From NCBI GenBank assembly GCA_003230015.1, contig QIGO01000009.1:1-44156 (forward strand): a stretch of 44,156 nucleotides of DNA. The letters are read 5' to 3'. The translations under genes were made by a program, and so were the position numbers. How positions within the stretch are numbered: the first letter of the stretch is position 1; each line of letters starts with the position of its first letter. Shown here one piece after another: positions 14,795 through 39,588 of this stretch. The DNA comes from Alphaproteobacteria bacterium. GTDB lineage: Bacteria; Pseudomonadota; Alphaproteobacteria; UBA6615. The notes below the pieces were generated by a model. It ran no database searches. It was not told the origin of the DNA and saw only the letters and a list, made by a program, of their open reading frames with translations.

Positions 14795-16696
14795 TTACCA
14801 GAGCCGCTGTTTGTCGATGAACACCATGTGCCACAATTCAAGCATTACGAGTGAATATACTTGTTTCAGGTAGACAAATTCCCGCGCGTCCATTTTATCT
14901 TTTAGATACTTCACGTACTCGTATTTGAAATACCCTCTATTCTTTACGCTGCTCTCATTTAACGTCATGGCAACGAGTTCTTTGGCCCGTGGATTATTGT
15001 AAAAGAATTCCAGAGGGAAATAGAACGGGTTCTTCGCCCTTTTTACCGAATCCGGCGGCAGTACGCCCTTTGCATACAGACGCTCGATATATTTGTCCGT
15101 TAACCCTCTAATCTTCATTCCGGGCGGCATTTGGAAGGCCAGCTCTATGAGTTTATGGTCAAGAAAGGGCGCTCGCATTTCCAGCGAGTGGGCCATGGTG
15201 TTTTTATCCTGGCGCAACAGCAGGTTGTCCTGCAGCCAGTCATCGAAATGCAACCTCAACAGACGCTCCAGCAGGGGTCCGCTGGCCGTTGCCGACTCCT
15301 TTACCAATGCCTCAGTCGCTAGACATCTATACCGATCTGTATAAACATCCCGGCGCTCGTTACATTCCCACAAAGTGCGAAGATAGACATAGTTCTGGGC
15401 CAGGCTGCGGTCACCGAAATGACGGAGATACTCGATTACGCGCGCTTTACCCTTGTTGCCGAGGTAGGCAGGATAGTTAAAGAGCTTGTTCAGCACCGAG
15501 ACAGGCAGTGCCTCGAGTATGGGAAGCGCTAGGTTGCGCCTGAGAACGCCAGGAACCAGCCGTTGCCAGGTGTCGGTCCAGCGAATGATCTTGTGGAAGG
15601 AATATCCGGCGAACAGTTCGTCCGCCCCCTCGCCGCTTAGCACGACCTTGACATGCTGCGCGGCTGCCTCGGCGAGCTTGTAGTAGGCCAATACCAGGAC
15701 GTCACCGATGGGGCGTTCGAGGTGCCATAAAACCTTGGGCAAGAGGCCCAGATCGTCGGGCACGCATACGACCTCGTGGTGGTCACAGCCGAACCTCGCG
15801 GCAAGGGCGCGGGCCTCCGGAAGCTCGTCTATGGGGGAATCGAACCCGAGGGAGAAGGTTTTGATATTGTTGGAAAATTCCCTCATCTTGCCGACGACCA
15901 GGCTGGAGTCGATACCGGCACTCAAATAGGCACCGACGGGTACATCGGCGCGCAGGGTCAGGCGAACGGCGGCGGTAAATGTCTCGTCAAAGGCGGCCAG
16001 ACAGTCGGCGCGGGACAAGCGAGGCGGGACCGCCGGCACTTGGATGTCCCAGTAGCGCTGGATATCAGCCTGGCCGTTGGCCAAGCGGAGGTAGTGGGCG
16101 GCGGGTAAGACGCTGATATCCTTGAACATTGTCTGGGGCTGAGGGGTGTAGCGGAGCCCAAGATAGCTGTCTATCGCATTGATATTACAGGCTCTTTCAA
16201 TATGCTGGGACTCCAGGATCGACTTCACCTCGGAAGCGAACAGGAAGCGGCCGTGGTCATGATAATAATACAGCGGCTTTTGACCGGCCCGGTCGCGGGC
16301 AATAATCAACTCGCCCCGGCGCCGGTCATACAGCGCTAAAACAAACATGCCGTTGAGTTTGCCGAGAAAATCCATGCCCCACTGCTCATAGGCGTGAACG
16401 ATCGTTTCCGTGTCGCCGTGGGTGCGAAAGATATGGCCCTTGGCCTTGAGATCCTTGGTTAATTCAACGTAATTGTAAATTTCGCCATTGAAACAGACGA
16501 CAAGGCTATGATCCTCGTTGAAAATCGGCTGATCACCCGCCTCAAGGTCTATAATGCTCAGCCGGCGCATGCCCATGGAATAATCGCCGTGTTCGAAGAA
16601 GCCTTCGCCGTCGGGGCCGCGGTGGTGCATGATGTCCGCCATGCGCCGTAACAAGCCCGGCTCCGAAAAACCTTGAAAACCGAATATTCCGCACAT
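14795..16696 (-). CDS. asnB: AsnB-type glutamine amidotransferase (copy 1)
   Basis: 633 residues with both domains of glutamine-dependent asparagine synthetase. The Ntn glutaminase has Cys2 (MCGIFGFQG), 'HHRGPDGEG' and 'FNGEIYNY'. The synthetase domain has the PP-loop SAGIDSS at 259-265, where the family usually has SGG, and 'LSGEGADELFAGY'. In polysaccharide loci such proteins are thought to amidate uronic acids or act on related sugars; closely similar proteins also sit in exosortase-associated loci, but no exosortase is seen here. The last third (about 14795-15120) is noticeably richer in A/T than its surroundings. GAGG lies 13 bases before ATG 16696. It diverges from the GT-C gene across a 320-bp gap with hairpins. 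Confidence 0.9.
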   Translation of the reverse strand: MCGIFGFQGFSEPGLLRRMADIMHHRGPDGEGFFEHGDYSMGMRRLSIIDLEAGDQPIFNEDHSLVVCFNGEIYNYVELTKDLKAKGHIFRTHGDTETIVHAYEQWGMDFLGKLNGMFVLALYDRRRGELIIARDRAGQKPLYYYHDHGRFLFASEVKSILESQHIERACNINAIDSYLGLRYTPQPQTMFKDISVLPAAHYLRLANGQADIQRYWDIQVPAVPPRLSRADCLAAFDETFTAAVRLTLRADVPVGAYLSAGIDSSLVVGKMREFSNNIKTFSLGFDSPIDELPEARALAARFGCDHHEVVCVPDDLGLLPKVLWHLERPIGDVLVLAYYKLAEAAAQHVKVVLSGEGADELFAGYSFHKIIRWTDTWQRLVPGVLRRNLALPILEALPVSVLNKLFNYPAYLGNKGKARVIEYLRHFGDRSLAQNYVYLRTLWECNERRDVYTDRYRCLATEALVKESATASGPLLERLLRLHFDDWLQDNLLLRQDKNTMAHSLEMRAPFLDHKLIELAFQMPPGMKIRGLTDKYIERLYAKGVLPPDSVKRAKNPFYFPLEFFYNNPRAKELVAMTLNESSVKNRGYFKYEYVKYLKDKMDAREFVYLKQVYSLVMLELWHMVFIDKQRLW

Positions 16697-17016
16697 GGAT
16701 TTCTGGTGACCTCATCAGGCCCCAAGGGACCTGCTCCGGCGGCAATCTTGGTGCAACAGATCGGCGACCGCCAGGGCGCGTCCTGGTTACGCCGTCGGCT
16801 ATGTTAAAGGTGTAGGAAGGCAACTCAGAAGGCATAGCGGCAGCCTTCCTCAGTATGTCCTCGGGGCTACTTCCGAGGAGTGGGGCATAATCCGAGAGGG
16901 CGGATATCTCCCGCCTCAAAGACGGGATAGGCTAATCGGGTCGTGTGCGCACAAAGCAGCCGCTCGGCTATGTTTGCTAGACCAAAGGTCTTGGCAATGT
17001 GACGAGGATTCCACCG
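16697..17016. other. divergent intergenic region with three hairpins
   Basis: 320 bp between asnB copy 1 (minus) and the GT-C gene (plus), with no supported gene. Three inverted repeats follow each other: arms AGGAAGGC/GCCTTCCT at 16814-16850, TCCTCGG/CCGAGGA at 16858-16879, and GGCGG/CCGCC at 16899-16915. None has a T-run. They may be part of a structured leader of either gene or operator sites. Confidence 0.5.
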
Positions 17017-18567
17017 ATGGCACTTGCCTCACACTATGACCGGCCAATCGTGGCCCCGCGGTCCGGCTTGATCGCCTTAGTGCTCCTCGTCTTGGGTGTT
17101 GCGCTGGGTCTGCGGCTCTATGGACTGACAATCCACAGCCTGTGGTTCGACGAGGGCTATAGCATCGCACTGGCTGGCCAGGCGACAATGGGAGAGTTCC
17201 TCGATGCCTTGCTTGACGCGGGGCCCGGGCAGTTAACCCAGCCATTGTACTTTTTCCTCTTGTATTTCTGGGAGAAAGCCGCCGGAGACAGCGACTTGTC
17301 CTTGCGGCTGCTTTCGGCGCTGTTTGGATTTGGCGCCACGGTGGTCTTGTTTCTCACAGCCCGGCGCGCCTTTGATGACCGGCATGCCCTGTGGGCGGCC
17401 GCTTTCGCCGGTACCAGCAGCTTTGCGGTCTATTACAGCCAGGAGGTACGGCCCTACGCGCTGATGATCCTGCTCACGACGCTGCTGCTCTGGGCCTATA
17501 CAGAGGCGACCTTGGCGCCGCGATTGCGGAAGCGGCATCTGGTCGCGCTGACGGTGGCCTCCGTGGCGATGATGCTGGGCAGCGTTATCTCCCTGTTCGT
17601 CCTGGCGGTGGTGGCGTTGGCGGATTTGGCCGTTTGGCGACGACCAGGCCGCTGGTTCATGACATGGCTGCCCGCCGGGATCGGCGGGGCGGTTGTCATG
17701 GCCGGATTTTGGGCGGTTTGGCCCGAGACGAAAACAGTGCTGGGGCCGCCCAACCCGTTGCTGAATATGGGCTATGTGCCGTTTGGATTGATTGTCGGCC
17801 AAACTTTCGGGCCGCCCCTGGATACCTTGCGGGGGGCCGACAAGGTGGAGGTTGTGCTCACGCTTTGGCCGCGGTTGGCGGTCCTTGGGGCGGTGGTCCT
17901 GGCCATTGTTTGGCGCTTACGGACGCTCGTTTTTGGTGGCGGACGGCCGGGTGGCAGCCTGACACAATTGCGGTTGGCCCAGAGCTTCGCGTTGATGCTG
18001 GTGCTATCCTATATCACGGGCGTGGCGCTGATGTTCGGGATGGACTTCGATTGGCTGCCGCGCCGGGCGTCCTACATGCTGCCGATGATTGCCCTGTTGG
18101 TGCCGCTGGCCGTGCCCAAGACCGGCTGGCAGGTCTGGAGAATCGCACCGGTCGCGGGGCTCATCATCCTCAACCTGTTCTCGCTGTGGATCTATTTCGT
18201 CGATCCAGCCCATCGCCGGGACGAATACCGTGAGGCCATGGCCTATATCGGCGATACCGCCACACCCGAAAGCGTGACGATCTTGGCCTGGGGGCAGGAA
18301 GCCCTTACCGAGCGTTACGGGGGTGGTGTGGTTCCAGGCCTCGTCGCGGTGAGGAGCGACGATTTCCTGGGTCAGATAAACAATCTCGCCGGGGACAAAG
18401 AGGTGGTCCGGCTGATGATTAACCGGGAATGGAATTTCAACACTGGCTTCGCCCGGCGGAACCAGGGAACCATGGTCGAAACAATGGAGCAGGCGTACGA
18501 ACTGCTCGAGATCAACGAGTTTGTGGCCGTGAAGATCTATACCTTTAGGCGGAAGAGCCGCTCATAA
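17017..18567 (+). CDS. GT-C membrane glycosyltransferase, ArnT/PMT-like
   Basis: 516 residues with about 11 predicted membrane helices. The first periplasmic loop has 'HSLWFDEGYSI' (Asp45, Glu46), the acidic catalytic motif of GT39/GT83-like enzymes. Further on is 'YYSQEVRPYALM', typical of this group. These enzymes take a sugar from a polyprenyl-phosphate donor and add it to an acceptor in the periplasm. ATG 17017 has GAGG 8 bases upstream; the GTG at 16999 is in frame but lacks a site. Together with the DPM1-like GT2 and the small flippase-like protein it would make a three-part branch-sugar system. The gene is monocistronic and converges on the epimerase gene. Confidence 0.85.
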   Translation: MALASHYDRPIVAPRSGLIALVLLVLGVALGLRLYGLTIHSLWFDEGYSIALAGQATMGEFLDALLDAGPGQLTQPLYFFLLYFWEKAAGDSDLSLRLLSALFGFGATVVLFLTARRAFDDRHALWAAAFAGTSSFAVYYSQEVRPYALMILLTTLLLWAYTEATLAPRLRKRHLVALTVASVAMMLGSVISLFVLAVVALADLAVWRRPGRWFMTWLPAGIGGAVVMAGFWAVWPETKTVLGPPNPLLNMGYVPFGLIVGQTFGPPLDTLRGADKVEVVLTLWPRLAVLGAVVLAIVWRLRTLVFGGGRPGGSLTQLRLAQSFALMLVLSYITGVALMFGMDFDWLPRRASYMLPMIALLVPLAVPKTGWQVWRIAPVAGLIILNLFSLWIYFVDPAHRRDEYREAMAYIGDTATPESVTILAWGQEALTERYGGGVVPGLVAVRSDDFLGQINNLAGDKEVVRLMINREWNFNTGFARRNQGTMVETMEQAYELLEINEFVAVKIYTFRRKSRS

Positions 18568-18693: not shown

Positions 18694-19653
18694 TCAGCTG
18701 TGCGTTGCGGGCTCGTCGGACGCCGAAACGCCGGTGAAGCGCTCCTTGTCACTGGGTAGGGGAAAGGATTTCTGCATCCCCTCGGTCACGCCAATCGGCA
18801 AATAGCCAAAATCCCGCTTGCCCGGAAGCCAATCCGGATTGGCGTCCTGGCTAAGCCCGGCAATACCCTGCCAAGTAATCGGCGGATTCTTCATCGTCCG
18901 CTCGAGGACAAAGGCCAGTGCCCGGAGCATGAAGACTGGCACGGGCAAAAGTAGCTTCGGCCCGGCCTTGCGGTGCTTGAGGATGAGCTTGGCGAAGTTC
19001 CACATACTGATCTCTTCGCTACCGCTAAAGGCATAGGTCTTGCCATAGGTCTCCGTACGTCCTTGGAGAGCGAGCATACCGCGCTCCATATCGGAGACGT
19101 GAACCGGATTCTTCATCGCGTGACCAAGGCCTACAAACGGTACGATGGTATGGTTTAGCAGGGTGTTCATGAACAGTTGAAATTCAATTCCGCCATCGGG
19201 ACCATAGGCCAAAGTTGGCCGCACGATGGTATAGTTCATCGCCCTTTGCGCCTTAATCATCCGCTCACCTTCGCACTTCGAAAGGGAGTAGGCCGTAGCA
19301 AATGGGTAGGTTACGGATATGGACGAAACATATATAAAATGGTTAACGCCGGCATCTACGGCGCCGTCAATGATGTTTCTCGTGCCCTGAACGTTGACCT
19401 TTTCGAAAATGCTTGGGTGAGGCGCCAATAGGACCGCGGCAAGATGGTAAACGGTGTTTACGCCATCAAACACGCCACCCAAAGTCGAGGCGTCGCTCAC
19501 ATCTCCGTAACAAATTTCAACATCCAAACCGTTCAAGCGGCTCTCACAAGGATCATTCGGCAGGATCAGAACACGAACTCTCCGTCCCCGTTCGATAAAG
19601 CCGCGTACCAACGCAGCACCCATGAATCCAGCGCCACCTGTTATGAGGATCAT
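18694..19653 (-). CDS. NAD-dependent epimerase/dehydratase family protein
   Basis: 319 residues of the extended SDR family. The Rossmann motif GGAGFMG is at 6-12, the Ser pair near 110-112 and the catalytic pair Tyr122/Lys126 in AYSLSK. The C-terminal half resembles sugar or steroid/flavonol-reductase-like members, so the substrate is not clear; a nucleotide sugar is likely from the context. ATG 19653 has only a weak GAG upstream. It is a single gene, convergent with the GT-C gene (126 bp apart) and divergent from the polymerase gene. Base use is somewhat richer in A/T than the neighbours. Confidence 0.8.
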   Translation of the reverse strand: MILITGGAGFMGAALVRGFIERGRRVRVLILPNDPCESRLNGLDVEICYGDVSDASTLGGVFDGVNTVYHLAAVLLAPHPSIFEKVNVQGTRNIIDGAVDAGVNHFIYVSSISVTYPFATAYSLSKCEGERMIKAQRAMNYTIVRPTLAYGPDGGIEFQLFMNTLLNHTIVPFVGLGHAMKNPVHVSDMERGMLALQGRTETYGKTYAFSGSEEISMWNFAKLILKHRKAGPKLLLPVPVFMLRALAFVLERTMKNPPITWQGIAGLSQDANPDWLPGKRDFGYLPIGVTEGMQKSFPLPSDKERFTGVSASDEPATHS

Positions 19654-19955
19654 CTCGAAATACCAAATCAGTGAATAAAGATCGCTCTAACGTACTGACC
19701 CTAAGGTTAGCGCGTGTTCCTATTTATACTAGGCGGGCGTAGGTGCTACTCAGGCGGCAATTTGGGTTAATTCGGACATAGCCCAAATTCGGCTCCGGTA
19801 ACACTAATTTGCGAGAATTGGTGTTACCGACCCTGGCAGTAACGGTGCACACTATACCACTTACTCGGCCACTCTACCCCTTTTTGCCAACGCTATCGCG
19901 CCTGGCCGTCGTCTATTCTCCGGCCATCAGGAACAGCGTAAAATACGGACTAATC
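19654..19955. other. divergent intergenic region with two inverted repeats
   Basis: 302 bp between the epimerase (minus) and the polymerase (plus), with no separate gene. It holds the inverted repeats AATTTGGG/CCCAAATT (19759-19789) and the longer one at 19797-19828, listed separately. If the polymerase were translated from the in-frame TTG at 19809, the last 147 bp would be coding. Confidence 0.5.
19797..19828. repeat. 13-bp-arm inverted repeat upstream of wzy
   Basis: Left arm GGTAACACTAATT and right arm AATTGGTGTTACC pair along 13 positions with one G-T pair around the loop TGCGAG. No T-run follows. It could be an operator for a dimeric regulator or a leader hairpin of the polymerase mRNA. 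Confidence 0.6.
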
Positions 19956-21257
19956 GTGTCATCCGATATTGTGATATCCACGCCGGGGAAGTCCCCACAC
20001 TGGAGTAGTTGGCTGCTGTTCGCAGCGCTGTTTTATGTGGTGGTTGGCCTAAGCCCGTTTTCGCGCAGTGGGATCCTGGATACTTCAGGCGGCGATACAA
20101 GCAATCAGCTAGCGTGGGGAGTCATGGCGGCGGTCAGTCTGGCTATTGCCGCGAACAATTGGGCGGATACCGAACGGCTGCTGCGGCGATCCTGGCCGCT
20201 CCTGCTGGCGCTGGGTTGGATCACCACGACCATTCTATGGGCGCCCTATCAAGATCTCAGCATTCGACGGACCGGTGCACTCATCTTGGTCGCCATCGTC
20301 GGCATGGGCCTGGCGCTGACCTGCAAAAGTCCGGGCGCCTTTTTTCGGACCATGGTGGTGCTGAGCGGCGCGATCATGACGCTTAACATTTTTGGCCTGA
20401 TCGCGTTGCCGGGACTGTCCTATATCGATGGCGCGGCGGTCGGTATGCATCCGCACAAGAACACCGCAGGACAGGTATCATTGGTTGCCTACATTGTTTG
20501 GTTCGTGGCGGCGGCAACCGCACGTCACACTCGATGGCGGATCGTATTTTCCGGCGGTACGTTGCTGTGGTTTGGCTTTTTGGTGCTCACGCAATCGAAA
20601 ACAAGCCTTGGCATCGCCGTGCTCACGCCGTTCGTGATGGCGGGAACTTATGTGGTGGCGCGCGCGCAGGGCCTTGTCAGATCGTTTTTGATTGCTGCCA
20701 TAATCGCTGGCTTTACTTTCGTTTGGTGGGTATTCCTGGGCCTTGGGGTCACTGTCGAAAGGTTCGCCTTACTGATATTCGGCGACCTGACCTTTACCGG
20801 TCGAACGGACCTTTGGGAATATTTATGGGGCGAAGTCGCTCGGCGCCCCTTAATCGGTATCGGCTACGGCTCGTTCTGGAACACGGGACTTCGGTTCAGC
20901 CCCATCGACTTAGCACAAGGCTGGGCTGCCACGGCCGCACAGGCCCATAATGGCTATTTAGATCTGATTCTTAAGACCGGATATATCGGCCTTACGTTGG
21001 TCATGTTGTGCGTTGTCAGGTCACTTTACCTTGCCGTTGGTCTGGCCAGCAATCCGGAGGCGACGAGTGAGGACAAGGCTGCGTATATTTTGGCTGTAGC
21101 GTTGTTTATCGCTATTGCGCTGATGAATTTCATGGAGAGCTCCTATTTCCGCGCGTTCCACTATTTATCGGTGCAATTCCTCTTCTTGTATTTCTTTGTC
21201 GAGCGATGGTCGGAGCGCCTGCAACAGGAACCTGAGGCGATCGATGATGGGAGTTGA
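19956..21257 (+). CDS. Wzy-like O-antigen/capsule polymerase (Wzy_C family)
   Basis: 433 residues from GTG 19956, with about 11 predicted membrane helices and a long periplasmic loop. The segment 'GRTDLWEYLWGEVARRPLIGIGYGSFW' followed by 'AHNGYLDLILKTGYIGL' is the recognisable core of O-antigen ligase/polymerase family proteins. It would join flipped repeat units in the periplasm. The start is uncertain: the frame is open from TTG 19809, but the first 49 codons have no family features. The last 14 bp overlap the heparinase-family gene, so the two are coupled. Confidence 0.85.
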   Translation: MSSDIVISTPGKSPHWSSWLLFAALFYVVVGLSPFSRSGILDTSGGDTSNQLAWGVMAAVSLAIAANNWADTERLLRRSWPLLLALGWITTTILWAPYQDLSIRRTGALILVAIVGMGLALTCKSPGAFFRTMVVLSGAIMTLNIFGLIALPGLSYIDGAAVGMHPHKNTAGQVSLVAYIVWFVAAATARHTRWRIVFSGGTLLWFGFLVLTQSKTSLGIAVLTPFVMAGTYVVARAQGLVRSFLIAAIIAGFTFVWWVFLGLGVTVERFALLIFGDLTFTGRTDLWEYLWGEVARRPLIGIGYGSFWNTGLRFSPIDLAQGWAATAAQAHNGYLDLILKTGYIGLTLVMLCVVRSLYLAVGLASNPEATSEDKAAYILAVALFIAIALMNFMESSYFRAFHYLSVQFLFLYFFVERWSERLQQEPEAIDDGS

Positions 21258-23292: not shown

Positions 23293-24666
23293 ATGAATAT
23301 TGCGGAACCCACACTTGCCGCCCAGAGGGCCTCGGACACCGCGCCCAGGGCCATGCGGATCAGTATTTTCGGGCTTGGCTATGTGGGAACGATTTCAGCC
23401 GTCTGCCTCGCCAAAGAAGGCCACGCGGTCGTCGGTGTGGATACCAACGATACCAAGGTAGAGCTGATCGCCAAAGGCAACTCGCCGATCGTCGAGACCG
23501 ATCTCGATCGCTATCTGTCCGCGACCGTGAAATCGGGCGCGCTCTCGGCGACCACCGATTGGCGCGAGGCGGTCAGCAAAACCGACATCACCATGGTTTG
23601 CGTCGGCACCCCGAGCCAGGCCAATGGCAGCCTCGACCTGGCGTATCTGTCGCGGGTTTGCGAGCAGATCGGTACCGTTCTCAAAGACAAGGCCGAACGC
23701 CACATCGTGCTTATTCGTAGCACGATCCTGCCGGGCACAATGAAAGACCTGGTAAAGCCGTTGCTGGAAAGAACCTCGGGCAAAGTCGCCGGAGAAGGTT
23801 TCGGCCTGTGTTTCAACCCGGAGTTCCTGCGTGAAGGTTCGGCCATCCACGACTTCTACAACCCGCCGAAAACCGTTATCGGCGAAAGCGACCTGGTCAG
23901 CGGCGATGCCGTCGCCTCACTCTATTCGCAACTGGACGCACCGCTGATCCGAACCGATATCCGCGTGGCCGAGATGGTCAAATATGTCGATAACTGCTGG
24001 CATGCGCTGAAAGTGGCGTTCGGCAACGAAGTGGGCGCGATGGCAAAAGTGCTCGGCCTGGACAGCCATCAGGTGATGGACATATTTTGCCAAGATACAA
24101 AGCTCAATATTTCTCGAACCTATCTCAAGCCGGGTTTCGCCTTCGGCGGCTCGTGCCTGCCGAAGGATTTGCGCGCGATCGTCCATTTCGCCAAATCGGC
24201 AGACCTGGATCTGCCGATTTTCGGCGCGGTGCTGCCAAGCAACGAGCTGCAGATCGATCGCGGCTTCAAATTGATCCGGGATAGCGGTGAGCGGGCCATC
24301 GGTCTTGCCGGTTTGAGTTTCAAGGCGGAGACCGACGATCTGCGGGAAAGCCCCCTAGTCGAACTGGCCGAAAGGCTTATCGGCAAGGGCTTCGATCTGC
24401 GGATCTACGACCCGAATGTCAGTCTTGCCCGGTTGACGGGTGCCAATCGTGACTACATCCTAAACCATATTCCGCATATATCGCGGCTGCTGGTCGATAC
24501 ATATGAGGAGATGTTGGCGCACGCCAATATGATCGTGGTGGGTAACAACGACCCAAAAATACTATCATTGCTGAGTTCGCTGCGACCGGAACATCGGATC
24601 ATCGACCTCGTTCGCATCCCTGGGGCAGACCGATTCGAAGGGCGGTATGAAGGCATCAGTTGGTAA
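23293..24666 (+). CDS. algD: GDP-mannose 6-dehydrogenase (AlgD-like)
   Basis: 457 residues of the UDP-glucose/GDP-mannose dehydrogenase family, with detailed likeness to Pseudomonas AlgD: 'MRISIFGLGYVG' from residue 21, 'NPEFLREGSAI' at 175-185, Lys230 in 'AEMVKY', and the catalytic Cys288 in 'FAFGGSCLPKD'. It oxidises GDP-mannose to GDP-mannuronate with two NAD+. The first 20 residues are extra compared with AlgD, so ATG 23353 is an alternative start; neither start has a strong site. It lies 3 bp after the heparinase-family gene and overlaps the GT4 gene by 20 bp. ManC, encoded at 3-4.5 kb, supplies its substrate. Confidence 0.88.
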   Translation: MNIAEPTLAAQRASDTAPRAMRISIFGLGYVGTISAVCLAKEGHAVVGVDTNDTKVELIAKGNSPIVETDLDRYLSATVKSGALSATTDWREAVSKTDITMVCVGTPSQANGSLDLAYLSRVCEQIGTVLKDKAERHIVLIRSTILPGTMKDLVKPLLERTSGKVAGEGFGLCFNPEFLREGSAIHDFYNPPKTVIGESDLVSGDAVASLYSQLDAPLIRTDIRVAEMVKYVDNCWHALKVAFGNEVGAMAKVLGLDSHQVMDIFCQDTKLNISRTYLKPGFAFGGSCLPKDLRAIVHFAKSADLDLPIFGAVLPSNELQIDRGFKLIRDSGERAIGLAGLSFKAETDDLRESPLVELAERLIGKGFDLRIYDPNVSLARLTGANRDYILNHIPHISRLLVDTYEEMLAHANMIVVGNNDPKILSLLSSLRPEHRIIDLVRIPGADRFEGRYEGISW

Positions 24667-25924
24667 GAACGGGCGGCCGCGGCGCGTCCTCATCATTGTC
24701 GAGAATCTACCGGTTCCATTCGACCGCCGGGTTTGGATGGAAGCGACGACCCTGCGGCGCGCCGGCTACGAAGTTTCGGTGATCTGCCCGAAGGGCAAGG
24801 ATTTCAATGATAGTTACGAGGTCCTAGAGGGCGTGCATATCTATCGCCACTCGCTGCCGATCGACGCGCGCGGGGCGATGGGTTATTTGCTGGAATACCC
24901 GGCCGCTTTGTTCTGGCAGTTCGCTTTGTCCTGGCGCGTCATGTTTACACGTGGATTCGACGTGATCCATGCCTGCAATCCGCCGGACCTAATCTTCTTG
25001 GTCGCCGGCTTTTTCAAACTGTTCTTTGGAAAAAAATTCCTGTTCGACCATCATGACCTTTGTCCGGAACTATTCGAAGCAAAGTTCGACAAGAGGGGTT
25101 TCTTTTACTCGCTGATGCGGGTGTTCGAGAGCCTGACCTTCAAAGTCGCGGATGTCTCAATCGCAACAAATGGGTCATATCGGGATGTCGCCGTAAACCG
25201 AAACGGCATGGCGGCGGACAAGGTCTTTGTCGTGCGCAGCGGCCCCGACCTCAACCGGTTCAAGATAGCGCCGCCCGAGCCCGCCCATAAGAAGGGCCGG
25301 CGGTATATGGTGGGATATGTCGGCGTGATGGGGCAGCAGGAAGGCCTCAATTTCCTGCTGGATGCGGCGGAGCATGTGGTGCGCGTGCTAAAACGCGAGG
25401 ATTTGCAGTTCTGCCTGGTCGGCGGCGGGCCGGAGTTGCGGCTGCTGCAAGCCGACGCAAAAAGCCGCGGGATCGAGGGCTATATCACCTTCACCGGGCG
25501 GGTGCCCGACGAGACTCTGCTGTCGGTCCTCAACACGGCCGATGTCTGCATCAATACCGACCGGCATACGGTGATGAATGACAAATCGACGATGAATAAA
25601 ATCGTCGAGTATATGGCACTGGAGAAACCCGTCGTGCAGTTCGAGTCGACGGAAGGCCGGGTTTCGGCAGGCGAGGCCTCATTATACGCCCGCCCCGACG
25701 ATCCGGTGGATCTGGCCAACAAGCTGGTTGAACTTGTCGACGATGCAGGGCGCCGGGAGGAAATGGGCCGGCTGGGATTTGCCCGGGTGAGAGACAGCCT
25801 GTCCTGGCAGCATCAGATGCCGGTGTTGCTGCGAGCCTATGAGGCCGTATGGGGCGAGGCCTCGCATGAGGCAAATCTAGAACCCAATCTGGTGGCCAAG
25901 GGCAACGCCTCCTCGGGCGGGTAG
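24647..25924 (+). CDS. family 4 glycosyltransferase
   Basis: 425 residues, GT-B fold. N-terminal features include 'VENLPVPFDRRVWMEATTLRRAGYEV' in parts, and 'FDHHDLCPELFEAKF', which is common in GT4 enzymes of exopolysaccharide loci. The C-terminal donor domain has 'VGYVGVMGQQEGLNFLL' and the acidic region 'KIVEYMALEKPVVQFE'. The gene overlaps the algD-like gene by 20 bp and closes the run wzy-heparinase-algD-GT4. The donor is unknown; GDP-mannuronate is worth testing because of the coupling. Confidence 0.87.
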   Translation: MKASVGKNGRPRRVLIIVENLPVPFDRRVWMEATTLRRAGYEVSVICPKGKDFNDSYEVLEGVHIYRHSLPIDARGAMGYLLEYPAALFWQFALSWRVMFTRGFDVIHACNPPDLIFLVAGFFKLFFGKKFLFDHHDLCPELFEAKFDKRGFFYSLMRVFESLTFKVADVSIATNGSYRDVAVNRNGMAADKVFVVRSGPDLNRFKIAPPEPAHKKGRRYMVGYVGVMGQQEGLNFLLDAAEHVVRVLKREDLQFCLVGGGPELRLLQADAKSRGIEGYITFTGRVPDETLLSVLNTADVCINTDRHTVMNDKSTMNKIVEYMALEKPVVQFESTEGRVSAGEASLYARPDDPVDLANKLVELVDDAGRREEMGRLGFARVRDSLSWQHQMPVLLRAYEAVWGEASHEANLEPNLVAKGNASSGG

Positions 25925-26243: not shown

Positions 26244-27335
26244 ATGAAGGTAAGAAATATTGTTCTTTTGGGCTGCGGCGGTTTTATTGGCAGCCACCTA
26301 CTGGACCGGCTTATGACGGGCGGCGAGTATAATGTCGTAGGTTGGGATTTTAACAGGGATAAGATTGCCGGGCACCTGGACAACCGGAATTTCGAATTCC
26401 ATCAGTCCGATGCGTTCTCGGTAGAAGCAGCAAGCGACCTAGATGACGCGATCAAACATGCCGACGTCGTTATCTCGCTGGCAGCCATCTGCAATCCGTC
26501 GCGCTACAACACCGAGGCGATCGCCACCATCAACTCCAATTTCACCGAAGTCCAGAAACTCGCTGAGCTATGCGCCAAGCACAAGACCTGGATGATCCAT
26601 GCCTCTACTTGTGAGGTTTATGGCCGGACGATGGCGAGTTATCTGCCCGATAACAGCTACGACAATCCCGCTCTCTACGAGCAGATAGAGGACGAGACTC
26701 CACTAATTATGGGGCCGATCCAGAACCAGCGTTGGAGCTATGCTTGTGCCAAACAGCTCTCCGAACGCCTGCTGCACGCCTATCATATGGAGCAAGGGTT
26801 GCCGATCACCATGTTCCGCCCCTACAACTTCTTCGGGCCGCGTATGGACTTCATCCCGGGCCGAACCGGCGATGGCGTGCCGCGCGTCCTTGCCTGCTTC
26901 GTGACCGCGCTCCTCGACGGCACGCCGATGAAACTGGTGGATGGCGGCCATGCCAGGCGCGCGCTGCTCTACATCGACGATGCGGTCGACGCGCTGATGG
27001 CGATGCTTGAGAAGCCTCAGGCGGCGAAAAACCAGACGTTCAACCTGGGCTCGCGGCGGAACGAAATCTCGATCCGCGATCTGGCCGACATGATGCGCAA
27101 TGCCTATGCCGATGTGAGCGGCAACGCGGCCTATCGGAGCCATCCGATCGTTGAGGTTTCCGGGCTTGAGTTCTACGGCGAAGGCTACGAAGACTGCGAC
27201 CGGCGGGTGCCGAATGTTAACAAGGCCCGGCGCCTACTGGGTTGGGAAGCAAAATACGGTCTCGAAGAGACGATCAGTCATACAGTCCGCTACTTCTACG
27301 ACCAGTTCGGGCGTGAGTCCGCTGCAGCGGAGTAA
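26244..27335 (+). CDS. UDP-apiose/UDP-xylose synthase (AXS-like)
   Basis: 363 residues of the extended SDR family, related to the ArnA decarboxylase domain but much closer to plant AXS. The NAD motif is GCGGFIG (10-16). The residues described for the plant enzyme are in place: Cys83 in 'SLAAICNP', Cys123 and Glu124 in 'ASTCEVYG', Arg163 and Tyr166/Lys170 in 'QRWSYACAK', Asp317 and Arg321 in 'YEDCDRRVP'. 'GPRMDFIPG' and 'GVPRVLACF' also match the plant protein from memory. ArnA has Ser, not Cys, beside the catalytic Glu. The enzyme converts UDP-glucuronate to UDP-apiose plus UDP-xylose by decarboxylation and ring contraction. UDP-glucuronate would come from the ugd gene at 38-39.5 kb. AGAGGT lies upstream of ATG 26244. 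Single-function UDP-xylose synthase is the main alternative. Confidence 0.85.
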   Translation: MKVRNIVLLGCGGFIGSHLLDRLMTGGEYNVVGWDFNRDKIAGHLDNRNFEFHQSDAFSVEAASDLDDAIKHADVVISLAAICNPSRYNTEAIATINSNFTEVQKLAELCAKHKTWMIHASTCEVYGRTMASYLPDNSYDNPALYEQIEDETPLIMGPIQNQRWSYACAKQLSERLLHAYHMEQGLPITMFRPYNFFGPRMDFIPGRTGDGVPRVLACFVTALLDGTPMKLVDGGHARRALLYIDDAVDALMAMLEKPQAAKNQTFNLGSRRNEISIRDLADMMRNAYADVSGNAAYRSHPIVEVSGLEFYGEGYEDCDRRVPNVNKARRLLGWEAKYGLEETISHTVRYFYDQFGRESAAAE

Positions 27336-27429: not shown

Positions 27430-28905
27430 ATGCGTACAACATACAAAATCCTTGCGGATAGTCCGTCAGAAATGACCACGACAGTCGCATCCTCAGATGT
27501 TGCTGCGGGGGCGGCTTGCGCGCTCCGCCCGACTATTCAACGGGAAATCCTGTCCGGGTTGGTGCAGATCGGCGACGCAATCGGTGTTGGTGCGATCGGA
27601 ATCGCCATGTTGCCGGCAAACAGCTCTTGGACCGTCGCAATTTTAGCAGCGCTGCTATTGGGGACAGTGCTGAGCACGCGCCTGTTAGCGATGACCGGGA
27701 CCTACTCAACGAATGGGCTCAGGCATCCGTTGAGGCATATTGCGGCGATATTTGGCGTGTTTGCCGGACTGGGCGGCCTGGCATGGGGCGCGATATTCGT
27801 GAGCCAGATGGGCAACTTGCCCGCCGACTGGATCATCGGGTGGAGCGCGGCTGCCGCCGCCCTGTTAGCCTTGTCGCGGGTCGTGCTCTTCGTGGCGGTT
27901 CAGCGCTGGGCGCGGCGCGGCGCATGGGCCCAGAAAATCGTCCTCGTCGGGCGCGAGGCCGATGTTTGGCAGGTGGCAAACTCGTTGACCCAGAGTGAGC
28001 CGGGCGAGGCGGCTATCGCCGGCGTGTTTGTCGACAGTATGTCCTATCGGGTGACCACGATGGTCAATGCGCAGGGGGCGGGATATGTAGAGGAGGCTGT
28101 CGATTTTTGCCGAAAAAATCCCATAGACCGCGTCATTATCGCCATGCCGACCGATCCTGGCGGCGAGCTTAAATCTTGGATCGAGTCGCTTACGACGTTG
28201 GCGGTGCCCGTTCAAATCGCACAAAATAGCCGGACGCTGTTTCACGACGTACCCGAGAGCGCGTTGACCCTTGTGGATCTGTCTGGGCAGGTAATGACAC
28301 CATGGGGTCGTGTGAAGAAGTCACTCATGGACAGGGTTCTTGGCAGCCTTATCTTCGTCGCTATCCTGCCCTTGCTGACGGTATTGTGGGTGGCGATACG
28401 GGTGAGCAGCCCGGGCCCAGCGATATTCCGACAGCAGCGCATGGGATATAATAATACGCCGTTCACGGTGTATAAATTTCGCAGCATGGCAATTGGACAA
28501 GGTGCGACAGACGGCGCGCTACAGACGCGGCCCGGCGACAACCGGGTCACTCGGTTGGGAGAAATTTTGCGCCGTACCAGTCTCGATGAGCTGCCACAGC
28601 TCTGGAATGTTTTGCGGGGCGAAATGTCACTGGTGGGGCCGCGCCCGCATCCCATCGCCATGCGGACGCAAGGCCAATTGTGCGAGGAAATCGTTAGCGG
28701 TTACGGCAAACGTCACCGGGTCAAACCCGGCATGACAGGATGGGCGCAAATTAACGGTGCGCGCGGGGCTACCCACTCAGCCGAGCAGCTTCGCCGACGT
28801 GTTTCATTGGATTTCCATTACATTGAAAACTGGTCACCATGGTTGGACCTGAAAATCATTCTCTTGACTATTATTCGAGGTTTCTTCGATAATTCGGCGT
28901 ACTAA
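27430..28905 (+). CDS. WcaJ-like undecaprenyl-phosphate sugar phosphotransferase
   Basis: 491 residues. The N-terminal half has four to five membrane helices and a CoA-binding-like Rossmann segment (about 168-280). The C-terminal bacterial sugar transferase domain begins near 295 with 'KKSLMDRVLGSLIF', then 'FRQQRMGYNN', 'SLDELPQLWNV' (384-394), 'LVGPRPH' (401-407) and 'VKPGMTGWAQINGARG'. It loads the first sugar phosphate, commonly glucose, on undecaprenyl phosphate and so starts the repeat unit. The start at ATG 27430 is likely, with ATG 27472 as an alternative. The stop codon lies in the loop of an intrinsic terminator. Confidence 0.9.
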   Translation: MRTTYKILADSPSEMTTTVASSDVAAGAACALRPTIQREILSGLVQIGDAIGVGAIGIAMLPANSSWTVAILAALLLGTVLSTRLLAMTGTYSTNGLRHPLRHIAAIFGVFAGLGGLAWGAIFVSQMGNLPADWIIGWSAAAAALLALSRVVLFVAVQRWARRGAWAQKIVLVGREADVWQVANSLTQSEPGEAAIAGVFVDSMSYRVTTMVNAQGAGYVEEAVDFCRKNPIDRVIIAMPTDPGGELKSWIESLTTLAVPVQIAQNSRTLFHDVPESALTLVDLSGQVMTPWGRVKKSLMDRVLGSLIFVAILPLLTVLWVAIRVSSPGPAIFRQQRMGYNNTPFTVYKFRSMAIGQGATDGALQTRPGDNRVTRLGEILRRTSLDELPQLWNVLRGEMSLVGPRPHPIAMRTQGQLCEEIVSGYGKRHRVKPGMTGWAQINGARGATHSAEQLRRRVSLDFHYIENWSPWLDLKIILLTIIRGFFDNSAY

Positions 28906-28972: not shown

Positions 28973-30910
28973 ATGTGCGGAATTGCCGGACTCTTTAATC
29001 TGCCGAGCGCTGAAGGCCTATTGCCGACCATGCTGCGTTCGATCACACATCGGGGACCCGACGCCGAAGGCCAGTATTATCATGGGGCGTCCGGGGCGCG
29101 GATCGCACTGGGGCACAGGCGGCTGTCGATCATTGATCTGTCGGCAGCGGCAAACCAGCCGTTCGTGAAAGCCGGACTGGCGCTGGCTTACAATGGCGAG
29201 ATCTACAATTTCCAAGACCTGCGGCGGGAATTGATCAGGATGGGGGTGAATTTCCGCACCAATTCGGATACGGAAGTGGTGTTGGAAGCTTGGCGCGCCT
29301 GGGGGCCGGACAGCCTGCGCCGCCTGCGGGGCATGTTCGCATTCTCGATCTATGACGAGCATACCGGCCGCATGGTGCTGGCCCGCGATCATCTGGGCAT
29401 CAAGCCGCTGTTCATGGTGCGGCGGCAAAACGGTGTGGCGTTCGCCTCCGAATTGAAGGCGTTGCGGCCGATCCTCGGGCCCGATGCGGCTATAGACCAC
29501 ACGGCGATGGTGGCGTCACTGATGTATTATTGGGTGCCGGACAGCCATTGCGTGCTGAAGGGTGTCAAAAAATTGCCTCCCGGCCACTGGGTTGAGTTCT
29601 CGGCGGCTGGCAAGATGCAGATGCATTGCTACTGGGACGCCCGGGCCGAGCTGGTGGAACAACGCCGGCAACCGGTGGGCGTGTCCGAGCTGCGCAATAT
29701 ACTCGAACAGTCGGTGGCCAACCACATGATCGCCGACGTGCCCGTCGCCACATTCTTGAGCGGCGGCCTGGATTCAAGCCTGATTACCGTGCTCGCGGCG
29801 CGCCTGAACGCCAACATCGACTGTTACACGATCGCCTTCCGCGCGGAAGACCAGCGTTTCGAGGCGATGCCAGACGATCTGTTCTACGCCCGCAAAATCG
29901 CCAAGGCTCACGACCTGCGATTGCATGAAATCGAAATTGCCCCGGACGTGGCGGACATGCTGCCGCGGATGGTGGCGATGTTGGACGAACCGATCGGCGA
30001 TGCAGCAGCGATCAATACATATTTGATTTGCGAGGCCGCCCGCAAAACCGGGATCAAGGTCATGCTCTCGGGTATGGGCGCGGATGAATTGTTCGGCGGC
30101 TACCGCAAATATTACGCCGGCCTGCTGGCCAAAAAATACCAGCGTGTACCGGGTTTCATTCGGCGCGGCCTGATCGAACCGGTGATCGGCGGATTGCCGG
30201 TCGCCGGCGGTAACCGTGGCTATAAGACCGTTCGTTGGGCCAAGCGGTTTTTGGATTTCGCCAGCCTACCCGAAGAAGCCGCCTACCGCCGCAGCTACAC
30301 ACATTACGACCGCGATGGGTTTCATTCCTTGCTGTCGCCAGAGCTGTGGTCAACGGTGGAGCAGCTGTTTTCCGAGCATGCCGCGATCTACAATGAAGGA
30401 CCCAGCGACGATCACGTCAACCGCATGTGTTACACAGATACGAGGCTGTTCCTGAATGGCCTGAATTTGGCCTACACCGACAGATCGAGCATGGCAGCGT
30501 CGATCGAGGTGCGGGTGCCCTTTGTCGATTGGCAAGTGGCAGAAGCCGCCTTCTCAATCCCGGGCGACCAGAAGATCGTCGGCCGGGAAAGCAAGGCGAT
30601 CTTGAAGAAAGCCGCCGAGGCGTGGTTGCCAAAAGAGATCATCTATCGGCCCAAGGGATTATTCAGCGCCCCGTTGCGGGCCTGGATACGCCGGGATCTC
30701 AGCGAGATGATCAATGATATCCTACCGAACGGAAGCCTGGTTCAAGACGGCCTGCTGCGGGGCGACAAGATCCGCGACCTTATCGACGAGGACCGCCGCG
30801 GTGCGGCCGACAGGTCCAAGGAAATCTGGCAGCTGCTGACATTAGAGACCTGGTACCGGCAGCAGTGGCAGCCGGCCGCAGAGCAGGAACGGGGAGACGC
30901 GGCCGAGTAG
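28973..30910 (+). CDS. asnB: AsnB-type glutamine amidotransferase (copy 2)
   Basis: 645 residues, complete two-domain form. The glutaminase domain has Cys2 (MCGIAGLFN), 'THRGPDAEG' and 'YNGEIYNF'. The synthetase domain has the intact PP-loop SGGLDSS at 263-269 and 'LSGMGADELFGGY'. It is only distantly similar to copy 1, so the two are not a recent duplication. It likely amidates a carboxyl group, for example on a uronic acid of the repeat unit; true asparagine synthesis is possible. GGGG lies just before ATG 28973. The gene abuts the two-domain oxidoreductase with about 15 bp between them. Confidence 0.9.
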   Translation: MCGIAGLFNLPSAEGLLPTMLRSITHRGPDAEGQYYHGASGARIALGHRRLSIIDLSAAANQPFVKAGLALAYNGEIYNFQDLRRELIRMGVNFRTNSDTEVVLEAWRAWGPDSLRRLRGMFAFSIYDEHTGRMVLARDHLGIKPLFMVRRQNGVAFASELKALRPILGPDAAIDHTAMVASLMYYWVPDSHCVLKGVKKLPPGHWVEFSAAGKMQMHCYWDARAELVEQRRQPVGVSELRNILEQSVANHMIADVPVATFLSGGLDSSLITVLAARLNANIDCYTIAFRAEDQRFEAMPDDLFYARKIAKAHDLRLHEIEIAPDVADMLPRMVAMLDEPIGDAAAINTYLICEAARKTGIKVMLSGMGADELFGGYRKYYAGLLAKKYQRVPGFIRRGLIEPVIGGLPVAGGNRGYKTVRWAKRFLDFASLPEEAAYRRSYTHYDRDGFHSLLSPELWSTVEQLFSEHAAIYNEGPSDDHVNRMCYTDTRLFLNGLNLAYTDRSSMAASIEVRVPFVDWQVAEAAFSIPGDQKIVGRESKAILKKAAEAWLPKEIIYRPKGLFSAPLRAWIRRDLSEMINDILPNGSLVQDGLLRGDKIRDLIDEDRRGAADRSKEIWQLLTLETWYRQQWQPAAEQERGDAAE

Positions 30911-33159: not shown

Positions 33160-33268
33160 GCACTTGCCAACTATGTCGAGACAGAAAATAAATGGTGTTT
33201 CAAGACTGCCATCGGTTCGCATAGTTTTACCCTGCGTTGGACCTCTCATCACCTCAGGGATAAATACA

Positions 33269-34477
33269 GTGTCAACAGCTTCCGAGTCGGGCGACCGGTC
33301 TGTCATTGTGCGCCCCAACGGCCAGCGCGGCTGCAGAGTCCTGATCATCCAAGTGATGCTCAGGCACTACCGAGAGGCTCTCTATGACGGCCTATCGGCG
33401 GCCATGAACGACCATGGCGTAACCCTGCGGGTGGCCTACGGCCTGCCAGACGGCCGGCAGGCGCTGAACAAGGATGACATCCCACTAGACCCGTCGGTGG
33501 GCGTGATCGTGCCGACGCGGCGCCTGCTGGGCGGCCGCCTAGTCTATCAGAGTATCTGGAAACAAATATTCTGGGCCGATTTGATTATTGTCGAGCAAGC
33601 GACCAAATATCTCATCAATTTCCCGCTGGTGCTGGCCTCGGTTCTTGGCGCCAAGAAACTTGGCTTTTGGGGGCATGGCTGGAACCATCAGCTGTCGCAA
33701 GATTCTTTTTCAGAGCGGGTAAAACGGTTTGCCGTGCCGCGGTGCGACTGGTGGTTCGCCTACACCGAGGGGGTGGCCCGTTACGTGGCCGAACAGGGGA
33801 TGGATCCAGAGCGCATCACCGTTGTCGAGAATACGGTCGATACGCGAGAGTTGATGCAGCAGGTCGTCGATGTGATCGACTCCGACCTGGCCGCGTTCAG
33901 AAGCACCCACGGGATCCCAGAATCTGCGAAGCTGGCGGTTTTCAGCGGCGCGCTCTATGAACGCAAGCGCATGCCCTTTTTGTTGGAGGCGGCGCATCAT
34001 ATTAAGGCCCAGTTGCCGGAATTCCATCTGGCGGTGATCGGCGAAGGACCGGACACCGCATTGGTGAGGGAGGCGGCGGATAAATATGATTGGATCCACG
34101 CCCTGGGCGCTACTTTCGGCAAACACAAGGCGGTATGTTACCGACTCGCGGACGTCTTCCTGTGCCCCGGGTTGGTGGGTTTGGCTATTCTTGACGCGCT
34201 GGCCGCCGACCTGCCCTTTATCACCAGCGATATTCCAATACACAGCCCGGAAATCGAGTATCTGGAAGACGGGGTGAATGGTCTGTGCCTACCCTACGAT
34301 CCCGCACTCTATGGACGTGCCGTGGCTGAGTTGCTGACCGATCGCGAGCGTCTGGAGAAAATGAAAACAGCCGCCGGTAAAACGGCGCGGGAGCTACCGA
34401 TGAGCCGCATGGTCAGTAACTATTCACAAGGTATCTTGAATTGCCTGGGGGTGGCCGAAGCCACCAAGACCGGCTGA
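33269..34477 (+). CDS. family 4 glycosyltransferase
   Basis: 402 residues from GTG 33269, which has AGGGA about 8 bases upstream. The frame is open from 33164, but those codons lack similarity. It has a GT-B fold: 'RVLIIQVMLRHYREALYDGL' at the start, 'GFWGHGWNHQ' mid-protein, 'VFSGALYERKRMPFLLEAA' at the start of the donor domain, and 'PGLVGLAILDALAADLPF' with the acidic donor-binding area. It probably extends the lipid-linked repeat unit in the cytosol. It is seven bases from the next gene, so they are co-transcribed. Confidence 0.83.
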   Translation: MSTASESGDRSVIVRPNGQRGCRVLIIQVMLRHYREALYDGLSAAMNDHGVTLRVAYGLPDGRQALNKDDIPLDPSVGVIVPTRRLLGGRLVYQSIWKQIFWADLIIVEQATKYLINFPLVLASVLGAKKLGFWGHGWNHQLSQDSFSERVKRFAVPRCDWWFAYTEGVARYVAEQGMDPERITVVENTVDTRELMQQVVDVIDSDLAAFRSTHGIPESAKLAVFSGALYERKRMPFLLEAAHHIKAQLPEFHLAVIGEGPDTALVREAADKYDWIHALGATFGKHKAVCYRLADVFLCPGLVGLAILDALAADLPFITSDIPIHSPEIEYLEDGVNGLCLPYDPALYGRAVAELLTDRERLEKMKTAAGKTARELPMSRMVSNYSQGILNCLGVAEATKTG

Positions 34478-34484
34478 TGCCCGC

Positions 34485-35957
34485 ATGATAGAGGGCTTGC
34501 GCCTGCATCGACGCCAATTCTTCCTTAGTTCGGAACAAATCGGGCTTGCCGGATGGCGATCGCTGCCGCTCGGCGATGGCGTTGTGTTCAGCCATTGCGA
34601 GGACCTTTCGGTTGCGGATTTGCGCGACGGCGATGGTACGCGCTGGCTGCTCGTCGGTGATCCTATTGAGGCCGATCCCAGCCAACCCGTGCCACCGGAC
34701 CGCATCGGTAAGACCGCAACCAACCAATTGGCGGCGGCGACCTATAGTTGGTCCGGCCGCTGGGCGTTGATTTCACGCGATCAAATATTGGGCGATGCTG
34801 GCGGGCTGCTGCCGATTTTCTATGACGCCGAAACGGCCGGCGGCAGACCAAGAGTGTCCTCGAGCTTGGCCCTGCTGTCCGAGCACGGTGCCGGCCAACG
34901 CGTGTTTGCGCGCCGGTTGAGATGGAGCCGCGGCATGGACTGGTATGCACCGCCGATTTCCCGTCTCAAAGGAATATTTAAACTACTGCCGTCACAGCGG
35001 CTTAACTTGCGGACCCTCAAATGTGCGTTCGTCGACCGCTTCAGGCCGGACATTGGGGCGGCATTGAGTGACGCCGCCAAGGTAGACAGGCTTCTGGAGT
35101 TTTATATACATTATCTCAAAATTCTATCTCAAGCCACTGATTTTGTTACCATCTTCTTGACCGGCGGGCTCGATTCCCGGACCACTTTCGCGGCCGCTAT
35201 TGCCGCCGGCGTGCCAACTCGCTGCTGCACGCATCGGCGGTTTGCACCGCGGTTCGACTTTGACATCCCGCGCACGCTCAGTAATAGGCACGGGATTCCA
35301 TACAATATCGTCGAGCGGCAGAGTCGGGGCGATGGGGCGGCCCGGCTGTTCGATGAACATTGCTTCCTGAATTGTGTCGATTTCGAGCGCGATGCCCTGG
35401 TGCACGGGCAAATGGAGTTTCGGGCGGAAGAGTCGACGGTCGCCGTTAAATCAGGCTGCTGGGAAGTCGGCAGGTGCTTTTATCACGACCTGTTCCCTTT
35501 CCCTTGGGACGCGCATAATCCTACCGCCGAAGATATTATTAGTGCTTGGCGGATGGCCCGGAGCGACACGGACATTGTAGAGGGATTGGGTACCTGGCTC
35601 GACTGGCGCCGTGATCATCCGGCGACACATGTCGACTGGCAAGACCTGTATTATATAGAACAGCGGATGTGCGGGTGGCTTAGCGCGGTTGAGCAATCAA
35701 TCGATTTGGTGGCAACGCCGGTCGTGCAACCGGCAAACTGCCAGGCCATTTTCGATCTTCTATTGTCGTTCGACCGCAATGACCGGAAGAACGGCACAGC
35801 GCAAAAGCTGATGATCCAGCGGGTCGATCCAGCGATGATGGATGTTCCGATCAACGGGCCGAGGGATCGTGTCTACGAGCTGAAATATCATGGCCTTCGC
35901 ATCATCAAGGCCGGCCGTGAGCTGAAACACCGTTACCTATCGGCGCCTCGATTATAG
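34485..35957 (+). CDS. degenerate asparagine-synthase-like protein (copy 3), no glutaminase cysteine
   Basis: 490 residues. The C-terminal part has an ATP-pyrophosphatase PP-loop TGGLDSR (226-232) preceded by 'FVTIFL', like asparagine synthetase. The N-terminal 200 residues keep the rough layout of the Ntn domain ('SGRWALISRDQILGDAGGLLPIFYD'). They begin MIEGLRLH, however, and have no Cys at position 2. It can therefore not use glutamine by the normal route. It may adenylate a carboxylate and use ammonia or another nucleophile, or have lost amidation. Function unknown. It overlaps the convergent GT4 gene by 25 bp. Confidence 0.72.
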   Translation: MIEGLRLHRRQFFLSSEQIGLAGWRSLPLGDGVVFSHCEDLSVADLRDGDGTRWLLVGDPIEADPSQPVPPDRIGKTATNQLAAATYSWSGRWALISRDQILGDAGGLLPIFYDAETAGGRPRVSSSLALLSEHGAGQRVFARRLRWSRGMDWYAPPISRLKGIFKLLPSQRLNLRTLKCAFVDRFRPDIGAALSDAAKVDRLLEFYIHYLKILSQATDFVTIFLTGGLDSRTTFAAAIAAGVPTRCCTHRRFAPRFDFDIPRTLSNRHGIPYNIVERQSRGDGAARLFDEHCFLNCVDFERDALVHGQMEFRAEESTVAVKSGCWEVGRCFYHDLFPFPWDAHNPTAEDIISAWRMARSDTDIVEGLGTWLDWRRDHPATHVDWQDLYYIEQRMCGWLSAVEQSIDLVATPVVQPANCQAIFDLLLSFDRNDRKNGTAQKLMIQRVDPAMMDVPINGPRDRVYELKYHGLRIIKAGRELKHRYLSAPRL

Positions 35958-39520: not shown

Positions 39521-39550
39521 ACCAACACTCTCCTCAAAATACCTGCAACT

Positions 39551-39588
39551 CAAAAAAAATCGGGGCTATCTGTTATTCTCAGATGCCC
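39551..39588 (-). terminator. terminator or attenuator just upstream of ugd
   Basis: On the minus strand GGGC-ATCTG-AGAATAA-CAGAT-A-GCCC forms a 9-bp stem with one bulged A, followed by CGATTTTTTTT. It ends about 30 bases before the ugd start codon. It may end readthrough from kynU, or act as an attenuator in a longer ugd leader. On the plus strand the same stem is followed by four T. Confidence 0.65.

Follow-up and report, generated by a model that had tools for sequence, protein, structure and literature searches.

Apiose is regarded as a plant sugar, and to our knowledge few UDP-apiose synthases have been described from bacteria. Does an alphaproteobacterial exopolysaccharide locus encode such an enzyme, and where would its pentose go? 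The window, by which we mean the whole 44,156-nucleotide stretch of contig QIGO01000009.1 analysed here, contains a gene for which the original prediction was a UDP-apiose synthase. Bacterial UDP-apiose synthases were already published in 2017, and the enzyme alone adds a member to a described group. The genes associated with it, here and in other phyla, point to a shared, apparently undescribed route placing apiose (or xylose) on bacterial surfaces.

The UDP-apiose synthase gene and its product

26244-27335, plus strand: bUAS, predicted UDP-apiose/UDP-xylose synthase (UAS), 363 amino acids (identity to plant UAXS, tree, AU test, AlphaFold2 fold)

The gene is an uninterrupted open reading frame with an ATG start. 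The top sequence match of its product in the PDB is Arabidopsis UAXS (6h0n), with 341 bits, 47% identity and E = 6.5e-101, so the likeness to a UDP-apiose synthase is far above chance. The lower matches are ArnA (200 bits), Burkholderia PbgP3 (180 bits) and human UXS (95 bits). The AlphaFold2 model (pLDDT 85.7) also has 6h0n as its best PDB match, with a TM score of 0.92, compared with about 0.8 for ArnA. The eight residues named in the original prediction, C83, C123, E124, R163, Y166, K170, D317 and R321, are each at the position given there. C83, E124, R163, Y166, K170, R321 and C123 align column by column with UAXS Cys100, Glu141, Arg182, Tyr185, Lys189, Arg341 and Cys140, respectively, and T122, Y88 and N195 with Thr139, Tyr105 and Asn214. 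The active-site residues of UAXS, including the role of Cys100, are those tabulated in PMC12820599. The plant and window proteins thus have both cysteines, the catalytic triad, the substrate residues and the fold in common, although their identity is limited to the 47% noted above and the window gene has a bacterial context.

Relatives of the window protein were gathered from GTDB genomes, from plasmids and from the window's own family. The nearest, at 55-58% identity, are from a Minwuiaceae MAG, a genome of the same family (G002), Geminicoccus harenae and Alloyangia pacifica plasmids; identity to the Geminicoccus, Alloyangia and Minwuiaceae bUAS proteins spans 53-58%. We take Alloyangia pacifica to be the former Yangia pacifica. 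Yangia pacifica is the source of YpUAS, a bUAS named by sequence in the study that described GrUAS, XpUAS and CeUAS as bacterial UDP-apiose synthases (Smith & Bar-Peled 2017, PMC5607165). Members of this group make both UDP-apiose and UDP-xylose, GrUAS in a ratio of about 1.7:1, and no conserved operon was found around bUAS (PMC5607165). In two trees, the window protein falls in the bUAS clade with the Geminicoccus and Alloyangia (Yangia) proteins, with support of 99/94 and 100/98. It had been stated beforehand that grouping with the ArnA or UXS clades would count against the assignment, and the protein lies in neither. Since it is closest to UAXS (341 bits against 200 for ArnA) and inside the bUAS clade, the open reading frame very probably encodes a UDP-apiose synthase of the bUAS kind. 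It shares with the GrUAS/XpUAS/CeUAS group the clade, the active-site residues except at position 123, and the lack of a fused domain. It differs in having Cys123, where the sampled proteobacterial relatives have Ser, in its exopolysaccharide locus with WcaJ and Ugd, and in keeping the GT2b and SDR genes described below.

UAS occurs rarely and with a patchy distribution. Of 385 sampled genomes of the class, that of the window and one other have a UAS with at least 54% identity, and a draw of 398 genomes from the phylum contained one such UAS besides that of the window. Four UASs, 54-58% identical, are plasmid-borne. Carriage by phage was considered and rejected, the phage matches being ArnA-like or weaker; Pseudomonas phage Y5 (OQ572407.1, 83113-84135) encodes an ArnA-like decarboxylase homologue with 34% identity to UAS.

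Which residue marks a UAS? Cys123 had been put forward as setting the protein apart from the Ser-bearing ArnA types, and this part of the original prediction has to be given up. All seven proteobacterial relatives, those of Geminicoccus harenae and Alloyangia among them, have Ser (AGC) at position 123, and many Fibrobacterota UASs have Ser too; GrUAS probably has Ser there as well, judging from its congener L021. Cys at this position occurs in the window, in plants, in Planctomycetota and Myxococcota and in some Fibrobacterota proteins, scattered across the tree, and a single clade of Cys/Cys proteins is rejected (AU p = 0.0027). Cys123 is therefore not a functional marker and is unusable as evidence for apiose synthesis. 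On sequence grounds, the discriminating marker residue for UAS is Cys83, the counterpart of UAXS Cys100. UASs from the loci of Proteobacteria, Fibrobacterota, Planctomycetota and Myxococcota have Cys at this position, and ArnA, U4kpxs and UXS have Ala; the comparison includes an alignment of 39 proteins. The two exceptions, both divergent, are L036, with Val, and the archaeal L034, with Ala. The latter (L034, 7992-9068) is a UAS-like protein in a glycan locus of a Halomarina plasmid, and has Cys at the Cys140 site.

The exopolysaccharide locus

UAS is accompanied in the window by the following genes.

4531-6855, minus strand: Wzc-like chain-length determinant/tyrosine kinase (TIGR01005, TIGR01007, PF02706)
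6858-7493, minus strand: Wza-like export protein (PF02563, E = 3.4e-19)
7793-9271, plus strand: candidate Wzx-like flippase, or lipid-linked sugar flippase (about 9-11 TM segments)
12637-13644, minus strand: GT2a glycosyltransferase, overlapping GT2b (PF00535)
16999-18567, plus strand: GT-C-like membrane protein (PMT_2), 522 amino acids, candidate lipid-linked-sugar transferase (PF13231, E = 4.3e-12; Agl23-like)
19809-21257, plus strand: Wzy-like polymerase/ligase (PF04932, Wzy_C, E = 8.7e-11)
23293-24666, plus strand: Ugd1, UDP-glucose 6-dehydrogenase, which makes UDP-GlcA, the UAS substrate (TIGR03026, 408 bits; PF03721/PF00984/PF03720)
24647-25924, plus strand: GT4 glycosyltransferase upstream of UAS, with a 20-bp overlap with Ugd1 (PF13692/PF00534)
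27430-28905, plus strand: WcaJ-type undecaprenyl-phosphate hexose-1-P transferase, 94 bp downstream of UAS (TIGR03025, 370 bits, above cut-off; TIGR03023, 384 bits, just below cut-off)
33164-34477, plus strand: GT4 glycosyltransferase (PF13692/PF00534)
38174-39553, minus strand: Ugd2, second UDP-glucose 6-dehydrogenase (PF03721/PF00984/PF03720; 35% identical to Ugd1)

Further genes encode AsnB-like enzymes, a heparinase II/III-like protein and an ADH-Gfo/Idh fusion. The gene does lie, as had been noted, beside the initiating transferase and in the same locus as ugd, of which there are two copies. The parts of a Wzx/Wzy-type locus that are present are the initiating PHPT (the WcaJ-type transferase), Wzy, Wzc and Wza, so to this extent the predicted Wzx/Wzy exopolysaccharide locus stands; the tentative Wzx assignment comes from the topology of the protein at 7793-9271. 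Pfam, NCBIfam and PDB sequence searches gave no match for this protein; tblastn finds relatives of it on plasmids of rhizobia, one of them with the annotation 'polysaccharide biosynthesis protein'. The Wzx profile PF01943 has a single match in the same genome, on another contig. The open reading frame at 34485-35957 was rejected as a flippase, as it has no TM segments and contains a PP-loop-like FLTGGLDSR motif. Its sequence fits a divergent AsnB-like protein better, though its BLAST matches to the other two AsnB proteins are only marginal.

The UAS-GT2b-SDR association

Two further proteins of the window are central to the argument.

13547-14311, minus strand: GT2b, DPM1/ArnC/PpgS-type GT2, predicted polyprenyl-phosphate pentose (apiose/xylose) synthase (UAS-neighbour homologues 45-60% identical; fold; motif HADGQYPPE)
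18694-19653, minus strand: SDR of the NAD-dependent epimerase/dehydratase type, with GGAGFMG and YSLSK motifs, predicted epimerase/reductase of an activated pentose (homologues 34-49% identical beside GT2b)

DPM synthase, ArnC, GtrB and PpgS are all polyprenyl-phosphate sugar synthases. The sequence relatives of GT2b in the PDB are DPM synthase, ArnC and GtrB, its NCBIfam match is PpgS-like, and the top PDB fold matches of its structure model (pLDDT 88.9) are ArnC, DPM synthase and GtrB. In fold, sequence and QxPPE motif, GT2b is thus of the polyprenyl-phosphate sugar synthase kind, although, unlike ArnC and GtrB, it has no TM helices. UAS, GT2b and SDR are 5-12 kb apart in the window and on different strands, with the PMT_2 GT-C gene between GT2b and SDR.

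All window proteins were first compared with the regions that flank distant UAS genes. A GT2b homologue (45-55% identity) is directly downstream of UAS in six loci of Fibrobacterota, Planctomycetota and Myxococcota (L023-L025 and L027-L029), with a coding overlap or a gap of less than 5 bp in five of the six. Homologues of the SDR, 34-49% identical, are also found in distant UAS loci, among them L025, L026 and L029. Since these loci had been found through UAS, a search driven by GT2b was run to avoid circularity. No other GT2b above 40% identity was found in the 385 sampled genomes of the window's class. The 294 Planctomycetota genomes gave a single new match of at least 45% (G890, 49%), and it has UAS adjacent; two genomes with GT2b at 40-41% have no UAS nearby. 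GT2b is present in 89 of 168 Fibrobacterota genomes at E ≤ 1e-45. When 30 of the Fibrobacterota loci were inspected, UAS was within 1.5 kb of GT2b in 22, the SDR was beside it in 17, and one or both were there in 29. UAS was found in 13 of 13 further cases, made up of eight Fibrobacterota genomes without adjacent UAS and five with lower-scoring GT2b, compared with 0 of 6 Fibrobacterota genomes without GT2b (Fisher p = 3.7e-5 for these 19 genomes, which are related and hence not independent). All told, UAS was present in 35 of the 35 GT2b-bearing Fibrobacterota genomes checked. This suggests that glycans with apiose, or with UAS-derived xylose, are widespread in Fibrobacterota.

Among the Fibrobacterota, five genomes encode the GT2b proteins nearest to that of the window (57-60%). 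Their UASs share 52-56% identity with the window UAS and together are sister to the proteobacterial bUAS clade (96/94). In four of these five, SDR and GT2b are on one strand and UAS is 9-11 kb off on the other; the window has the same arrangement, and these four loci contain no homologue of any other window gene. The other proteobacterial bUAS genomes searched have no close GT2b, so UAS does not require GT2b. The most economical interpretation is that an older module has been retained in the window and lost in its relatives. We have good confidence that UAS, GT2b and SDR form a functional module. We found no description of it in a search of the open-access literature, with most subscription journals outside its range.

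On plasmids, SDR homologues are 31% identical at best, a level too low to be informative. The two nearest plasmid relatives of GT2b (43-44%, Sinorhizobium) adjoin UDP-xylose synthase, not UAS. On these plasmids (L067, 15001-17983; L068, 15001-17973), a GT2b relative, an epimerase-like SDR and UDP-xylose synthase stand in a row and likely form the equivalent of the UAS module for lipid-linked xylose.

Proposed pathway and alternatives

We think it likely that a bifunctional bUAS feeds a lipid-linked pentose route via GT2b, SDR and the GT-C protein. In the scheme that follows, we infer the substrates, the direction, the acceptor and the role of the SDR. Ugd would provide UDP-glucuronate. By analogy with its homologues, UAS would oxidize UDP-GlcA at C4 and open and contract the ring, while Cys83 relays the C3 proton, before decarboxylation gives UDP-apiose together with some UDP-xylose. 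GT2b is predicted to transfer the pentose from UDP onto polyprenyl phosphate, and the SDR to epimerize or reduce it at either the UDP or the lipid-linked stage. The GT-C protein (16999-18567) may then place the pentose on the exopolysaccharide, outside the cytoplasmic membrane. The order UDP-GlcA, UDP-apiose, polyprenyl-P-apiose and extracytoplasmic transfer is suggested by the GT2b relatives, by the PMT_2 protein of the window and by a GT-C-like protein in Fibrobacterota. The last is a multi-TM protein of 577-592 amino acids encoded divergently from UAS, whose N-terminus appears GT-C-like; it has no Pfam match and no detectable homology with the window GT-C protein.

We put it at slightly less than an even chance that UAS, a DPM1/ArnC-type GT2 and an SDR constitute a conserved, undescribed pathway of Fibrobacterota, Planctomycetota, Myxococcota and this proteobacterium, in which polyprenyl-phosphate-apiose is made and an extracytoplasmic GT-C enzyme transfers it onto surface glycans, the window being a rare proteobacterial copy that keeps the whole module. 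That the lipid-linked sugar is specifically apiose is likewise held tentatively, a little short of even. The association offers a concrete, testable pathway and candidate apiose-handling transferases of a kind not previously tied to apiose.

How does this route compare with known systems? The Xanthomonas pisi apiose operon, XpUAS-XpApiT-XpXylT, also links UAS to pentose glycosyltransferases, but XpApiT is a GT90 enzyme and a direct transferase (PMC6193724), whereas the partner in the window is a DPM1/ArnC-type GT2 with an SDR. Bacterial use of apiose has so far been linked to this one GT90 enzyme, and bUAS had no conserved genetic context before. A search of the window's own genome with the GT90 profile PF05686 gave no match, but the control also matched nowhere. 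The Arn pathway is similar in logic, with a UDP-GlcA decarboxylating SDR, a polyprenyl-P pentose GT2 and a GT-C enzyme, so that UAS, GT2b and GT-C would correspond to ArnA, ArnC and ArnT; the best fold matches of GT2b are indeed to ArnC. It differs in that no aminotransferase, formyltransferase or deformylase partner was identified in the window, the sugar would not be aminated, and UAS is outside the ArnA clade. The three-component pentofuranose systems use a PRPP donor, a polyprenyl phosphoribosyltransferase and phosphatase, a flippase, a GT-C enzyme and an auxiliary SDR epimerase (Kelly et al. 2024, PMC11127046); the main text of that paper makes no mention of apiose. The window route as we propose it would resemble these in that a pentofuranose is carried on a lipid, flipped and transferred by a GT-C enzyme, with the help of an auxiliary SDR epimerase; a UDP-pentose and a GT2 are predicted in place of the PRPP donor. 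Pfam scans of the main window ORFs gave no polyprenyl phosphoribosyltransferase or phosphatase domains.

The main doubt about lipid-linked apiose is that xylose is possibly the sugar transferred. UAS would then be genuine, but the module would deliver xylose, with UDP-apiose a by-product or unstable and GT2b a UDP-xylose:polyprenyl-phosphate transferase. Known bUASs yield both products and UDP-apiose degrades (PMC5607165), and the Sinorhizobium relatives beside UDP-xylose synthase mean that the GT2b donor could be UDP-xylose. We nonetheless consider this fairly unlikely, since it is UAS, and not UXS, that consistently accompanies GT2b in Fibrobacterota, Planctomycetota and Myxococcota, and the UASs of these loci keep Cys83, the counterpart of the residue that steers ring contraction.

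Alternatively, an ordinary cytoplasmic GT4 or GT2 might use UDP-apiose for a Wzx/Wzy repeat unit, with GT2b and SDR serving another sugar as chance neighbours. The two GT4 genes that flank UAS (24647-25924 and 33164-34477), the adjacent WcaJ gene, the 12 kb between UAS and GT2b, and the many proteobacterial bUASs, the majority, that lack GT2b would all fit. However, GT2b at 45% identity or above is missing from the other sampled genomes of the class, yet the window has both it and the SDR in its UAS locus, and both are partners of UAS in other phyla, with matching layout. Chance neighbourhood is therefore rather improbable, and we continue to prefer a role for GT2b and SDR in the UAS pathway.

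It is very unlikely that the enzyme is an ArnA/U4kpxs-type UDP-GlcA decarboxylase giving UDP-4-keto-pentose and UDP-xylose with no ring contraction. These proteins belong to the same superfamily and have the same overall fold, and among the NCBIfam families the window protein scores best with the U4kpxs model, but the 272 bits are below the cut-off of 294, and the ArnA model reaches 242 bits against a cut-off of 777. The window protein has Cys/Cys where ArnA has its Ala393/Ser433 signature, matches UAXS far better than ArnA, and is separated from the ArnA/U4kpxs-type proteins by a split with 100/100 support; a tree constrained to place it with ArnA is rejected (AU p = 0.004). A recent transfer of the gene from plants, in which UAS is best known and whose enzyme is 47% identical, is extremely improbable, since identity to bacterial proteins is higher (53-58%) and the window protein nests in a proteobacterial and Fibrobacterota clade that contains no plant sequence (96/94).

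The polymer and neighbouring genes

An apiose-containing capsule is the prediction for this locus. The polymer could also carry xylose, because known bUASs make the two UDP-pentoses together. It may contain amidated uronic acids. There are three AsnB-like genes in the locus, at 14795-16696, 28973-30910 and 34485-35957, the third without a Pfam match.

In Fibrobacterota, UAS is followed by the gene of an AlgX-like protein, and the UAS cassettes of L027, L028, L029 and G1217 include an AlgX-domain protein of about 690-710 amino acids. MBOAT-type genes are present in the cassettes of L025 and L029. These AlgX- and MBOAT-bearing cassettes suggest an acetylated polymer. A Transglut_core2/TPR-type protein is encoded in the cassettes of L023-L025 and L027-L029. 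In the window, a beta-helix protein at 9268-10425, whose gene overlaps that of the Wzx candidate by 4 bp, is possibly a polymer-modifying enzyme. Beside the locus, at 37271-37936, is the gene of a small protein with a CBM60 (xylan-binding) module, which is of interest if the polymer has xylose.
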